The notes beneath the pieces are model-generated. The model searched no databases, was not told the origin of the DNA, and saw only the letters and a program-made list of their open reading frames with translations. Below, piece after piece: positions 7,480 to 29,751 of a stretch of 34,048 nt of DNA (the first letter of the stretch is position 1; each line of letters begins with the position of its first letter). The DNA lies in IMG/VR virus record IMGVR_UViG_3300027770_000016, positions 1 to 34,048 of that record; one strand, written 5' to 3'. Both the position numbers and the translations under genes were made by a program. This DNA comes from a virus.

Positions 7480-8511
7480 ATGAAAACAAAAACTAATTTT
7501 GCAACAACATCGGATGTCCGCAATTTGATTAACGCAACCGTGGAAACCCTTCCAAACGGGCCGGTTCGTGACGGCATTCAAACAAAGATGTTTAATTATT
7601 GGGACAACCTAAACGCAGGAAACAACTTGCCCGAAGGATCTGACCGTAAACGGTTTCATGCCGAAGCCCTTGACAATTATAAAGCAGCAATTCGCATGGC
7701 GGTAAGTTTAGGCAGTAAAGGGGACAGTAGTTACGAATTTAAAATTACTGAATTGGAACGAAAGTTGTCAAAAATCAAAGTAGGCAAAAACGAAATGGCA
7801 AAGATTGAAGATAAGTTTTATGGCAAGCGCGTTGTGAAGGGAATTTTTGCAAGGGTAAATATATCTTCCCAAATTAACGCGGCAAAACAATTAGGCGTTC
7901 AAATGGCTAGGGAAAACAAATCTAGCGAGTATGGAGATTCTAGATGGAACGCATTGCTAAATGAAACCTACAAAGTGGTGGGCGGTGAAAATACAGATCA
8001 AGGTAGCAATGTGGGTAAACAATTGCGGGCGGCATGGAAATCTGCAAATGAAAAAGAACAAGGCAGAATTAACAAGATACAGCAAGACGCAACTTTTAAA
8101 TTAGAAGCAACTGTTCGATCTTTAAAAAGCAAATTAGAATCTAAAGGCTTTTGCAGCAACAAGAAAAATTGCTCGCCGCAAGATAAAGCACTTCAGCAAG
8201 AAATTGGCGAGGCTTTTTCCTATGAAACTTCAGATCAACAATTTATTAGTTTGATTAGAAAAATGACTGCGCGGCTTAGTCAACCGTTTGGGGCGGCATC
8301 CAAAAATAGACACACAGGCGTTAAGGCAATGTTTGCTTTAAACAAGGCCGAGGCTTTAAACGAAGTGAGGGTTTTAAAATTGGCAATTTCAAAGATAGAG
8401 TTAGAATTAGAAATGTACAAAAGAAACTTGAAGGAAGCAGTCAAGTATTACAAGTCTTTAAATGGAGGCAAAGGATCATTTACCCGCGCTGGCGCAAAGG
8501 CATTCAAATAA
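7480..8511 (+). CDS. Unknown head-region protein, Lys-rich, with one EDK motif
   Basis: 343 residues, start ATG at 7480 with an AAGGT-type ribosome site. No family recognised. Helical and basic, with long stretches such as ELERKLSKIK and SKIELELEMYKRNLKEAVKYYK. Residues 106-117 read MAKIEDKFYGKR, a fourth copy of the motif seen three times in the preceding protein, and could be an old internal start. There are two close Cys residues (FCSNKKNC). The ending KGSFTRAGAKAFK is basic. Its stop overlaps the ATG of the protease (TAATG). Likely a virion-internal or scaffold-associated protein, inferred from position. Confidence 0.72.
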   Translation: MKTKTNFATTSDVRNLINATVETLPNGPVRDGIQTKMFNYWDNLNAGNNLPEGSDRKRFHAEALDNYKAAIRMAVSLGSKGDSSYEFKITELERKLSKIKVGKNEMAKIEDKFYGKRVVKGIFARVNISSQINAAKQLGVQMARENKSSEYGDSRWNALLNETYKVVGGENTDQGSNVGKQLRAAWKSANEKEQGRINKIQQDATFKLEATVRSLKSKLESKGFCSNKKNCSPQDKALQQEIGEAFSYETSDQQFISLIRKMTARLSQPFGAASKNRHTGVKAMFALNKAEALNEVRVLKLAISKIELELEMYKRNLKEAVKYYKSLNGGKGSFTRAGAKAFK

Positions 8512-9761
8512 TGGCAGCATCCCACCAAACAGAAACTACGCCGGACGGCAAGGTTCGCATTAAAGACTTGGAATTGTTCATGGGTTACGATCCCTCAATT
8601 GATGCAGAGGATGACGATGCCATGCAGGAATACGATTCCAAGAAGGTAAAAGACATTGTTAGCCGTACCAACAAATTTATAGCGCGCGGCAGCCGCCCCA
8701 AACTTGTAATTGAGCATGAAAAAGATGGCAAGCCAAGCAACCCAAAGGCAGTTGGCGACATTGAAAAAGTATGGCTTGAGGAACGCAACGGCGTTTCGTA
8801 TGTCATTGGCGATGTGATTATGCCTAAGGAATCATTTAAGGCATACTTAGCAACTAACGCTTTTCCGCGTCGATCCGCTGAAATTTGGAAAGATAATCAT
8901 TTAAGTGAAGTGGCATTGTTGGGACGGGATACCCCGCGCCGACCATTGCCGGACACCTCATTTACAAAACTTGGCGATAAGATTATTTTTGAAAGAAAAT
9001 TGTCCGCGTTGGACATGACACTTGACTTGAAATCAAAATTTGACGAAATTGGCGTAGGTGGTGGTTCAAACACCTTCGTACCATCGTCAGGAATTAAAAA
9101 GGAAACAAAAATGGCTAAGAAGAAGCGAATGGAAGCAGACGAGGAATTGAAGCAAAATGCCGCTATGGAATGCGCTGTTGACCCTGACGAGGATGAAGAA
9201 AACTTTGAGGGCGACGACCTTGAAACTATGGAAGCCGATGCCGAAGCAATGGGCGCGGATGACATGGAAGATGAAATGGCTGAAGATGATGACATGGAAG
9301 TTATGGCTGAAGATGACGACGAGGAAATGAACGCTTACGGCGGCAAAAAGAAAATGAAGCAGCCCGTATTCAGCAAAGGCAGCCGATCCGAAAAGGCTTT
9401 GTTTGCACAAGTGCAGGCTTTAACTCAAGCCAACGCTGCAATGGAGCGACAATTGCGCCTTGAGCGGTTTGGCAAGGAAGTTGACAACATGGTGCGTGAC
9501 GGTTTCCGTTGCTCTAAGTTCCGCAACCAAATGGTTGAGGAGTTGGCAGACAGCGAAACCCCACAAGCAAAGGTTTCCTTTTGGAAAGCGACAATGGCGC
9601 GCGATCTAACGGGTATGCCAATGTTGGCTCAAATGACTGTGCAAAACGATAGCCCAAGTATGGGTGATCGTGAAGCAAGCGACCGCGCTGTGCGTGAAGC
9701 AGCCGGCGACATGACGAAATTCAAGCAACTGTTCAGCAAGTACACAGGCAAACAAGCCTAA
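8511..9761 (+). CDS. Prohead protease-scaffold fusion, Mu gpI-like
   Basis: 416 residues. The first 160 (for example KDLELFMGYDPSID, RPKLVIEHEKDGKPSNP, NHLSEVALLGRDTPRRPLPD) match the style of Mu I-type and related head maturation proteases, with His70 region and the LSEVALLG strand where the catalytic Ser/His framework is expected. A linker GVGGGSNTFVP (181-191) follows, then a basic patch, a very acidic stretch (about 208-275, DE-rich) and a helical C-terminus typical of scaffolds. The linker motif recurs at the major capsid N-terminus, a possible processing or capsid-contact site. Catalytic residues are not assigned with certainty. Confidence 0.7.
   Translation: MAASHQTETTPDGKVRIKDLELFMGYDPSIDAEDDDAMQEYDSKKVKDIVSRTNKFIARGSRPKLVIEHEKDGKPSNPKAVGDIEKVWLEERNGVSYVIGDVIMPKESFKAYLATNAFPRRSAEIWKDNHLSEVALLGRDTPRRPLPDTSFTKLGDKIIFERKLSALDMTLDLKSKFDEIGVGGGSNTFVPSSGIKKETKMAKKKRMEADEELKQNAAMECAVDPDEDEENFEGDDLETMEADAEAMGADDMEDEMAEDDDMEVMAEDDDEEMNAYGGKKKMKQPVFSKGSRSEKALFAQVQALTQANAAMERQLRLERFGKEVDNMVRDGFRCSKFRNQMVEELADSETPQAKVSFWKATMARDLTGMPMLAQMTVQNDSPSMGDREASDRAVREAAGDMTKFKQLFSKYTGKQA
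9111..9761 (+). CDS. Probable scaffold protein from an internal start
   Basis: An in-frame ATG (residue 201 of the protease gene) at 9111 follows a good ribosome binding site (AAAAAGGA at about 9095-9102). It would give a 216-residue basic-acidic-helical protein, the scaffold alone. Nested protease/scaffold genes of this kind are known in lambda (C/Nu3) and Mu (I/Z). It sits just after the GVGGGSNTFVP linker, exactly where a domain boundary is expected. Confidence 0.55.
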   Translation: MAKKKRMEADEELKQNAAMECAVDPDEDEENFEGDDLETMEADAEAMGADDMEDEMAEDDDMEVMAEDDDEEMNAYGGKKKMKQPVFSKGSRSEKALFAQVQALTQANAAMERQLRLERFGKEVDNMVRDGFRCSKFRNQMVEELADSETPQAKVSFWKATMARDLTGMPMLAQMTVQNDSPSMGDREASDRAVREAAGDMTKFKQLFSKYTGKQA

Positions 9762-9779
9762 TTTAAAAGGAAAAATACA

Positions 9780-10208
9780 ATGGGATCATTTTCAAGTACA
9801 CCGGCACTTCAAGCAACAGGCACAATTCTTCCCTACACTTTTGTAGGCATTGGAAGCGGCGATAACACGGGTACGGCGGCAACCGCCGCTGCAACCCAAG
9901 TTCTTGGCGTTTCCGATGGTTCAACATTGCAGTTTGATAGTGCTAATCATGCAACCACGGGCTTGCCAATTACGCTTCAGGGCGGCGATGTGGTTTTGAT
10001 TGCCGTAACGGCTTCAACCGCTATTGCGGTGGGCGACCGTTTGCAGGCTTCAACAAGTGGCTACGCAATTAAAGCAGTTGCTACCGCAGGCCCTGCTTTG
10101 CGTTACCAAGGCTATGTTGCTCTTGAAGCAGTTTCTTCACAAGCGTCAAATGTTGTTATTCGTGCATACAAAAATGGTGGAATGGTTTACTACCCAACCA
10201 CACTTTAA
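9780..10208 (+). CDS. Capsid decoration-like protein
   Basis: 142 residues, Ala/Thr/Val/Gly-rich with almost no charged surface, and a ribosome site AAAAGG before the ATG. Segments such as LPYTFVGIGSGDNTGT, LPITLQGGDVVLIAVTAST and AIAVGDRLQASTSGYAIK match the small beta-rich cement or decoration proteins (DUF2190-like in style) that sit between protease and capsid genes in many siphoviruses. It would bind the outer face of the mature capsid. The family assignment is by style and position. Confidence 0.65.
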   Translation: MGSFSSTPALQATGTILPYTFVGIGSGDNTGTAATAAATQVLGVSDGSTLQFDSANHATTGLPITLQGGDVVLIAVTASTAIAVGDRLQASTSGYAIKAVATAGPALRYQGYVALEAVSSQASNVVIRAYKNGGMVYYPTTL

Positions 10209-10234
10209 AACAAACTTACAAAGGAGTATGAAAA

Positions 10235-11278
10235 ATGGCTGAAGTAGGAGTTGGTGGTGGACTTAATACATTCGTTCCCACCTTTAGTCCGGCAACCGGA
10301 CAATTGCAAATTGAATTTACACGCTCTGTAAACCAATTTCCAATCACTCGTTATGCCCAAATTGTTCCTGTGACCGCCATGAAGGGTTACTACCTCAAGA
10401 TTGACGAAGAGGAAACAGCCCGATTGGTTACCGTTCAAGATGCCCAATGGCCGCTTGGCGAAGATCGACCAACCGGAATCAACAGCGATTTTGAATTTGT
10501 TGCATACACAACGCAACGCTTTCAAAATTCGTTCAGCATTCCGCAGGAAACCGCGCGCCAATCCGCTTGGGACATTGTTGCGAGCCATGCTCGTATTCAA
10601 GCCGCCAAGATGATGACGCACCGCGCATACCGTGCAGCAACAACTTTAACCACTACAACCAACTACACAACCGGCAGTAATTATTTTGCCAAGTCAATTA
10701 GTTTGGTTTCGGGTGCGTACATTGGCGCAAGCGTGGTTGATCCTGTTCAAAAGATTATTCGTGCAGCAATGGAGAAAATCATTCAAAATACCGTTGGCGT
10801 AGTTACGCCAAAGGATATTATCATGGTGATGAACCCAACAACGGCGCGCAAAATTGCTTCTGACGATGGCGTTCGTGATTATGTCAAGAACACCCCAATG
10901 GCATACAGCGCGTTGACAGGTGATGCAACATTCGCAACTTACGGTTTGCCACAAACCTTGTTTGGTTTGGGCGGCGTAGTTGTTGATGACACCGTTTCGG
11001 TAACAACTCGCAAGGGTTCGTTGAGTCCTTCCCGTGGATTCTTTTACGGTGGCGACACTCCGGGCGTTGTGTTTGTAAGTCGTCCGGGAGGATTGATCGG
11101 CAATGAAGGCCCTTCATTCTCAAGTTTGTCCGTGTTTGCTTATGAGGACATGACGGTTGAAACCTTGGAAGATCCTTGGAATCGTCGTATTAAGGGTTCA
11201 GTTGTTGACAATTCAGCGATTGAATTGACTGCGCCGCTCGCATCACTTTACATTGCGGATATTTCAGCGGCATCCTAA
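10235..11278 (+). CDS. Major capsid protein
   Basis: 347 residues preceded by a strong AAGGAG ribosome site, as expected for the most abundant product. N-terminal VGVGGGLNTFVP is shared with the protease-scaffold linker. The body has typical HK97-fold features: a long amphipathic segment (TARQSAWDIVASHARIQAAKMMTHRAYRAA in pieces), the P-domain-like IIRAAMEKIIQNT, KDIIMVMNPTTARKIASDDGVRDYV, and a C-terminal VFAYEDMTVETLEDPWNRRIKGSVVDN. Transcription ends just after it at a strong terminator, separating the head from the neck genes. The capsid call is firm by position, length and content, the exact subfamily is not. Confidence 0.88.
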   Translation: MAEVGVGGGLNTFVPTFSPATGQLQIEFTRSVNQFPITRYAQIVPVTAMKGYYLKIDEEETARLVTVQDAQWPLGEDRPTGINSDFEFVAYTTQRFQNSFSIPQETARQSAWDIVASHARIQAAKMMTHRAYRAATTLTTTTNYTTGSNYFAKSISLVSGAYIGASVVDPVQKIIRAAMEKIIQNTVGVVTPKDIIMVMNPTTARKIASDDGVRDYVKNTPMAYSALTGDATFATYGLPQTLFGLGGVVVDDTVSVTTRKGSLSPSRGFFYGGDTPGVVFVSRPGGLIGNEGPSFSSLSVFAYEDMTVETLEDPWNRRIKGSVVDNSAIELTAPLASLYIADISAAS

Positions 11279-28644: not shown

Positions 28645-28889
28645 CAAACGAAAACCAACCATCATTGTTTGAAAATGAAAAAGCATGGAAAGAACATTGG
28701 CAAGGTATGCCCGAATTTGTTCAACCAAGCAAAGAATCAATAAAACAAATTATTGTTCATTTTGAAACCTTTGAAGATGTTAAAAAGTTTTCTGAATTGG
28801 TAGGCATTAAAATTTCTGTAGATACCAAAAGTTTTTTTTATCCGCCAAAAAAACAATCTGATTTAATGGTTTATGTAGATGAATCCTAA
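28641..28889 (+). CDS. 82-residue protein coupled to the glycosyltransferase
   Basis: 82 residues: WKEHWQGMPEFVQPSKESIKQIIVHFETFEDVKKFSELVGIKISVDTKSFFYPPKK. It overlaps the glycosyltransferase start by 11 bases and the previous stop by ATGA. The pattern MPEFVQ... FETFEDVKKF... IKISVDTKSFFYP is of a kind I recall next to this glycosyltransferase type in other phages, but this was not checked. It may be a partner or accessory. Confidence 0.6.
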   Translation: MTNENQPSLFENEKAWKEHWQGMPEFVQPSKESIKQIIVHFETFEDVKKFSELVGIKISVDTKSFFYPPKKQSDLMVYVDES

Positions 28890-29751
28890 ACACCCAATTT
28901 ATATTGTGTCCAAGGGAAGATGGGATAGCCGTCTTACAAGCAAAGCGTTAGAAGCAATGGGCGTTCCTTATTACATAATTGTTGAACAAAACGAATATGA
29001 AAAATATGCGGAATTTATTTCCAAGAAAAAAATTCTAGTTTTGCCGCAATTATTTTTGGATAAGTATGAAACACTAGACAATTTAGGCGAAACAAAAAGC
29101 AAAGGGCCCGGGGCCGCGCGTAATTTTTGTTGGCAACATTCAATTCAAATTGGCGCAAGGTGGCATTGGGTACTTGACGACAACATTAACGGATTTGTCC
29201 GACTCAATCGTAACCAACGCATAAAAGTACAAACCGGATCAATGTTTGCGGCGGCTGAAGATTTTGTAGACCGGTATGAAAATGTGGCGCAAGCAGGATT
29301 TGAATACAGATTTTTTGCCGGAGGCGGCAGGCGCGAAAAAGCACCCTTTAGATTAAACACCCGTGTTTACTCTTGCATTTTAATACGAAACGATATTCCT
29401 TTTCGGTGGCGTGGTCGATACAACGAAGACACAATTTTGTCTTTAGATATTTTGAAGCAGGGTTGGGCAACAATTTTGTTTCAAGCGTTTTTGCAAAACA
29501 AAGCGGCAACCCAAACCGTCAAGGGCGGAAATTCTAAAGATTTTTACGATTATGAAGGAACTTTGCCAAAGTCTAAAATGCTTGTTGACACCTATCCGGA
29601 ATATGCAAGGTTGGTTACTCGATACGGGCGATGCCATCACCATGTCGATTACCAACCTTTTCAGGCAAATAAATTTGTACGCAAGGCTGAAATCAAAATT
29701 AAAAAAGAAGTAAACAACTATGGGATGGTTTTGCGGCAATGCCGCCGCTAG
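28879..29751 (+). CDS. TET-associated-type glycosyltransferase (TAGT-like)
   Basis: 290 residues. The order is that of the phage TAGT family: N-terminal IYIVSKGRWDSRLTSKALEAMGVPYYIIVEQNEYEKY (7-43), KGPGAARNFCWQHS (75-88), the metal-binding-like VLDDNINGFVRLN (98-110), EDFVDRYENVAQAG (127-140), RVYSCILIRNDIPFRWRGRYNEDT (162-185), and GGNSKDFYDYEG followed by GRCHHHVDYQPF (250-261). Known TAGT enzymes transfer sugars to hydroxymethylcytosine made by phage TET oxygenases. I find no TET, cytosine methyltransferase or hydroxymethylase in this window, so the acceptor here is uncertain. Confidence 0.8.
   Translation: MNPKHPIYIVSKGRWDSRLTSKALEAMGVPYYIIVEQNEYEKYAEFISKKKILVLPQLFLDKYETLDNLGETKSKGPGAARNFCWQHSIQIGARWHWVLDDNINGFVRLNRNQRIKVQTGSMFAAAEDFVDRYENVAQAGFEYRFFAGGGRREKAPFRLNTRVYSCILIRNDIPFRWRGRYNEDTILSLDILKQGWATILFQAFLQNKAATQTVKGGNSKDFYDYEGTLPKSKMLVDTYPEYARLVTRYGRCHHHVDYQPFQANKFVRKAEIKIKKEVNNYGMVLRQCRR

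Follow-up and report, generated by a model that had tools for sequence, protein, structure and literature searches.

An 11-residue peptide common to the protease-scaffold linker and the capsid N-terminus co-varies across uncultured viruses and may mark a maturation-protease site

Why should two unrelated head proteins of one virus carry almost the same 11-residue peptide? The question is raised by an uncultured virus, IMG/VR virus record IMGVR_UViG_3300027770_000016, whose whole stretch of 34,048 bases was analysed and is called the window here. One copy of the peptide lies in the linker of a protease-scaffold fusion protein and the other near the N-terminus of the major capsid protein, which has 347 residues and begins MAEVGVGGGLNTFVP. 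The original prediction had placed both copies, and its coordinates, reading frames and codons are all exact. The features of the locus are as follows.

8511..9761, + strand: protease-scaffold fusion gene, 416 aa (open reading frame; family of relatives with the same gene set)
8511..8930, + strand: predicted protease domain, residues 1-140, gp21/assemblin-like by AlphaFold2 model and structural match
8715-8717 and 8874-8876, + strand: putative catalytic His69 and Ser122, respectively, proposed from their invariance
9051-9083, + strand: linker copy of the peptide, GVGGGSNTFVP, protease-scaffold residues 181-191
9099-9103 and 9111-9113, + strand: internal Shine-Dalgarno AAGGA and ATG, predicted start of a nested scaffold gene
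9111..9761, + strand: nested scaffold product, free of the motif, with an acidic stretch, a likely coiled coil and a C-terminal helical part (coiled-coil and helical assignments by inspection)
9780..10208, + strand: small head protein, decoration-like or head-scaffolding-like (phrog_673, E 2.1e-9)
10235..11278, + strand: major capsid protein, HK97 fold, 347 aa (phrog_29, E 7.5e-4; Foldseek)
10247-10279, + strand: capsid copy of the peptide, GVGGGLNTFVP, capsid residues 5-15, at the tip of the N-arm

The two peptides are identical at 10 of 11 positions. This is the top ungapped 11-residue match among the 595 pairs formed by the 35 ORF products of the window, where the next best pair reaches 8/11, and composition-preserving shuffles of both proteins (n=300) gave a maximum of 7/11; the near-identity noticed originally thus stands above all other pairs and all shuffles. 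A six-frame scan of the window allowing up to 4 substitutions found no further copy of the motif. Given the glycine-rich composition of both stretches, one could suppose a chance likeness between flexible segments, or a recent duplication without function. We consider this hardly credible: shuffling does not come near the observed match, and the peptide, as described below, is kept in 140 genomes, co-varies between the two genes and shows codon agreement at background level.

Scans of IMG/VR returned about 300 loci from relatives; loci overlap and contigs recur among them, and without this redundancy 140 distinct genomes carry the two genes. Compared with the window, protease-scaffold proteins range down to about 31% identity and capsid proteins to 44%, and the motif is present in 300 of 300 intact linkers and in all 306 capsid N-termini (in an earlier set, both copies were found in 260 of the 263 loci having both genes), so that conservation holds in the relatives of either gene, as the original prediction implied. 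Six of 306 linkers lack the motif; four of these are truncated by the contig, and two come from a single contig, represented by overlapping loci, in which the reading frame is interrupted. In the latter (L059 and L082, IMGVR_UViG_3300045125_000087) the gene is broken between the protease domain and the linker, and motif and scaffold run on in another frame, which may be an artefact of assembly or a genuine separation of the two parts. Across the relatives there is one copy per gene and none in other head genes. Extra copies that might serve as scaffold cut sites were sought and none was found, the remaining pattern hits coming from the two frame-broken loci and from another gene encoding GSGASSYIPT. 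In that gene, E[TA]GSGASSYIPT occurs about 2.2-2.5 kb into the locus (L086, L096, L099 and others); its likeness to the motif is superficial, and its sequence context is different.

The two copies sit in different landscapes of conservation. The linker motif is an island, with information peaks of 4.3 bits at G184 and 4.2 bits at P191 against about 1.5-2.5 bits for most ungapped flanking positions; the capsid motif is preceded by only 3-9 residues and leads into a conserved N-arm, with 2.4-4.3 bits at residues 15-35. The residue after the proline is small in both genes in 140 of 140 genomes (S or T in capsids; S, G, T, A, N or D in linkers). As judged from these sequences, the core of the motif is G-x-x-[NS]-[TV]-[FY]-[VI]-P followed by a small residue. 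Another island of conservation, VH[IV]DIxSH, was seen within the scaffold's acidic region of low complexity in 75 of the 140 genomes (for example the protease-scaffold gene at 3321-4514 of L013, and those of L023 and L096); it is absent from the window and from every other protein of the loci, and metal binding or partner binding are possible roles. Beyond IMG/VR, tblastn with the capsids of five clades and the protease-scaffold protein of the window found no relatives among cultured phages. Bacterial genomes contributed a single truncated contig, from a Nitrospiraceae assembly, and 294 other genomes of that assembly's phylum held no relatives.

Is the peptide merely retained in each gene, or do the two copies change together? 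The relatives fall into five distinguishable clades. Linkers in clade A, to which the window belongs, read GVGGGLNTF[VI]P, and its capsids G[VI]GGGLNTF[VI]P or APGGGLNTF[VI]P. Clade B pairs the linker GVGGGLNTFVP with the capsid TVGGGLNTYVP, and clade C pairs TVGGGLST[FY]VP with VVGGGLSTYIP. Two pairings occur in clade D, V[AS]PGGSNTFVP with VAPGGGNTFVP and V[AS]PGSANTYVP with VAPGQANTYVP. In clade F the linker AAPGVGNVFVP and the capsid NIGGGLSTFVP agree at the core only. Overall, linker and capsid agree within genomes at 8.39 of 11 positions, compared with 7.17 (sd 0.10) when partners are permuted among genomes and 8.18 (sd 0.05) when they are permuted within clades; no permutation of either kind reached the observed value. 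Since permutations leave some relatedness in place, changes were also mapped by parsimony on a tree built from the remaining protease and capsid sequence. On 6 branches, where 1.7 were expected (p=0.003), both genes had changed to an identical residue at the matching position, in a test that is moderate rather than overwhelming, with a midpoint-rooted tree and a null that places changes by branch length. Two of these co-changes are on terminal branches. Of the others, N7 to S falls in a clade of 35 genomes, and a different clade shows G3 to P, P3 to A and F9 to Y on branches nested within one another. The search for co-variation in relatives that had been proposed at the outset therefore gave a positive answer.

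At matching residues, codons agree with a frequency of 0.375 within genomes and 0.372 across genomes. Because this agreement is no better within than between genomes, selection acts on the peptide, and recent duplication or gene conversion can be ruled out. An RNA-level feature was likewise rejected, as codons vary freely and the RNA structure predicted near the linker is unremarkable (z -0.74). Taken at the level of the sequences, conservation and co-variation exclude chance and support a partner common to both copies.

The AlphaFold2 model of the capsid protein has a pTM of 0.79 and matches HK97-fold capsid chains, including HK97 itself, with a Foldseek probability of 1.00, and 42 of 67 capsid relatives match phrog_1005 (best E 6.8e-11); on this basis the protein has the HK97 fold. 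The solved structure closest to the capsid model (m46b04927c0bb) is 3bjq (E 1e-10), which is not the capsid of a studied phage but a phage-related Bordetella bronchiseptica protein (BB3626). Neither the capsid nor the protease protein of the window had a significant Pfam match. The small head protein keeps its position between the two genes in the relatives and lacks the motif. The upstream genes encode a terminase (phrog_38, E 1.7e-56) and a portal of the Mu type (Portal_Mu, E 3.6e-50), together with a Mu F-like protein whose match falls just under the cut-off, and downstream are head-tail connectors and a tape-measure-like gene. Elsewhere in the window, positions 28879-29751 encode a TET-associated glycosyltransferase (TAGT, PF20691, E 1.5e-43), which suggests that the DNA of the virus is hypermodified.

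Capsid residues 1-32 have pLDDT below 50 in the monomer model although they are conserved, and for this reason the N-arm is probably conserved for contacts made in trans. In the main rival to the cleavage reading given below, the linker would imitate the tip of the capsid N-arm and settle in the pocket that this arm uses on a capsid subunit. The few scaffolds that bear a protease would thereby be kept at the shell until maturation, when the real N-arm would take the pocket. The conserved yet unordered arm into which the capsid motif runs fits this idea; the capsid N-arms of JBD30 do hook onto neighbouring capsomers (PMC11445458), a pocket common to both copies would account for their co-variation, and in 80alpha the shared N-terminal sequence of the scaffold is essential while its cleavage is not (PMC5744158). 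Yet the nested and presumably major form of the scaffold lacks the motif, so only the long form could dock, and docking does not by itself account for the placement of the peptide at the junction of protease and scaffold. We regard it as possible, if not probable, that the peptide serves for docking. The broader proposal, in which the linker mimics the N-arm tip and a single pocket times both protease placement and shell locking, is put forward tentatively and is rather unlikely.

The position of the linker copy points instead to the protease. The AlphaFold2 model of the N-terminal domain has pLDDT values mostly of 61-94 up to about residue 138. When it was compared by VIA-align, the best match was T4 gp21 (5jbl; Z 8.2 over 115 residues, 3.4 A), and herpesvirus proteases scored Z 4-6 amid unrelated MCE-domain (lipid-transport) proteins scoring up to Z 5.8. 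The gp21 score is close to the best level reached by unrelated models, and the herpesvirus protease matches agree with it; Foldseek alone was weak here, placing gp21 at rank 31, and a sequence search of the PDB for relatives gave no significant match. H69, S122 and E133 are invariant in 67 relatives. With moderate confidence, the modelled domain can be assigned to the gp21/assemblin type of protease. The original prediction had put the motif exactly at the boundary between protease and scaffold, which is about right: the domain ends near residue 140, the motif occupies residues 181-191, and the nested scaffold would start at residue 201.

The ATG of this predicted nested start, at 9111, lies ten residues past the motif, and the AAGGA precedes it with a spacing of 7 bases. 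With a criterion of at least 4 Shine-Dalgarno bases located 4-12 bases before the Met, the first Met after the motif has such a signal in 90 of 96 distinct relatives, compared with 371 of 1302 (28%) other in-frame Mets, and capsid starts have it in 85 of 92. By these sequence signals, an in-frame internal scaffold start is a conserved property of the protease gene. As the nested product lacks the motif, the motif marks the C-terminal edge of the protease-only part.

We propose that the peptide is a recognition or cleavage site common to protease release and capsid trimming, a reading that we consider somewhat more probable than its alternatives taken together. The 11-residue peptide would be recognised and cut by the virus's own capsid-maturation protease. 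Once the procapsid is complete, the protease would free itself by a cut shortly before the point at which the nested scaffold begins, and the same enzyme would trim every capsid subunit at its N-terminal copy of the peptide, which may help the N-arm to switch from the procapsid to the mature arrangement. We infer, then, that the domain is active as a protease, that its cut falls within the motif or beside it, and that maturation is aided by the trimming. Two explanations had been offered originally, a cleavage sequence and a shell-docking peptide. A common binding partner is supported by the co-variation; between the two explanations cleavage is favoured, with docking at the lower probability given above, owing to the assemblin/gp21-like domain, the site before the nested start, the nested form without a motif, and the precedents.

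Among these precedents, the principle of such cleavage sites is already known from 80alpha, P2, T4 and the herpesviruses. In the herpesvirus UL26/UL26.5 system, cleavage at the R-site leaves a product 21 residues longer than the nested scaffold (PMC4498786). The arrangement here would be similar, with protease, linker and scaffold in order, a nested scaffold beginning soon after the linker, the peptide at the position of the release site and, as far as the model can tell, a similar fold. The second herpesvirus site, the M-site, is located at the scaffold C-terminus, whereas here the second copy is at the capsid N-terminus, and cleavage is established in herpesviruses. The R-site predicted for pseudorabies virus is YLQA↓T (PMC4498786), and the likeness of [FY]-[VI]-P-small to this sequence suggests a cut one residue after the proline. 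Our guess by analogy is thus that, if the subsites resemble those of assemblin, the bond cut would follow linker residue 192 and capsid residue 16.

In bacteriophages a close parallel is Staphylococcus phage 80alpha, in which CP and SP have a common sequence that is cut by Prp, removing 13 and 14 residues (PMC5744158). There, too, a conserved sequence is common to the capsid N-terminus and an unrelated scaffold, and the short stretch on the capsid is of similar length. The 80alpha protease is a host enzyme that also cuts ribosomal protein L27 (PMC5744158), whereas in our virus the candidate enzyme is a viral domain joined to the scaffold; both 80alpha copies are N-terminal, whereas the scaffold-side copy here is internal (181-191) and upstream of the nested start. 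One might suppose from the same precedent (PMC5744158) that a host protease or chaperone, and not the viral domain, recognises the peptide. We find this very improbable, given that the virus encodes a gp21-like domain directly upstream and that the motif, with F/Y followed by V/I, is unlike the Prp site, where the cut falls between F and A.

Other systems share parts of the arrangement. According to the portion of the P2 account available (PMC7552001), gpO combines an N-terminal protease and a C-terminal scaffold in one protein, as here, removes 31 residues from the N-terminus of the capsid protein gpN and cuts itself; that portion describes no long motif common to gpO and gpN, and we found no sequence relationship to either protein. 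T4 gp21 (5jbl) gave the best structural match to the modelled domain. In SPN3US, the single motif A-X-E of the prohead protease gp245 is common to several head proteins (PMC10052503), but it has three residues and occurs in many head proteins, in contrast to 11 residues in two proteins with one copy each. Mu-like protease/scaffold genes, in the part of the source at hand (PMC4378225), have a nested in-frame scaffold start with a Shine-Dalgarno sequence, and Mu-like phages further resemble our viruses in the Mu-type portal, in the sub-threshold match to Mu F and in a small head protein between the protease-scaffold and capsid genes; that part describes no peptide common to protease and capsid.

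Several observations weigh against a shared cleavage site. The nested, presumably abundant scaffold is devoid of the peptide and would have to be removed in some other way, and known recognition sequences, A-X-E among them (PMC10052503), are shorter and less conserved than the motif. Trimming would take off little, as only a few capsid residues precede the motif. The linker is unordered in the AlphaFold2 model (pLDDT about 35-40), whose confidence profile gives no sign of the linker docking in the active site, and nothing else places the motif there. The fold match is modest, and in clade F the two copies match at the core only. In a further reading, the protease would bind both copies in its active site or close to it but leave them uncut at that place, and the N-terminus of the capsid protein would activate or restrain the enzyme until the shell is complete. 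The same co-variation and position would fit such an arrangement, and in herpesviruses dimerisation inside capsids and a C-terminal extension regulate the assemblins (PMC4498786). We judge it improbable, as a cut site elsewhere would be required and we recognised none, and we found no precedent for an uncut capsid N-terminus acting in this way.

Common protease recognition sequences in head proteins are already known. The literature searched gave no description of a long co-varying peptide that joins the release-site position of a protease-scaffold fusion to the capsid N-terminus in diverse uncultured viruses. The bond cut by a maturation protease, and the means by which the enzyme finds both itself and the shell protein, are usually worked out virus by virus using mass spectrometry; here, evolution points to one peptide in two unrelated proteins, changing in step. 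The peptide is thus a prediction of where cleavage (or docking) takes place throughout a group of uncultured viruses, with the clades supplying matched natural variants for testing specificity. If the cleavage reading is right, a herpesvirus-like release site would be linked directly to the capsid N-terminus in tailed phages. The search for short peptides that co-vary between protease and capsid genes could be applied to other phages.
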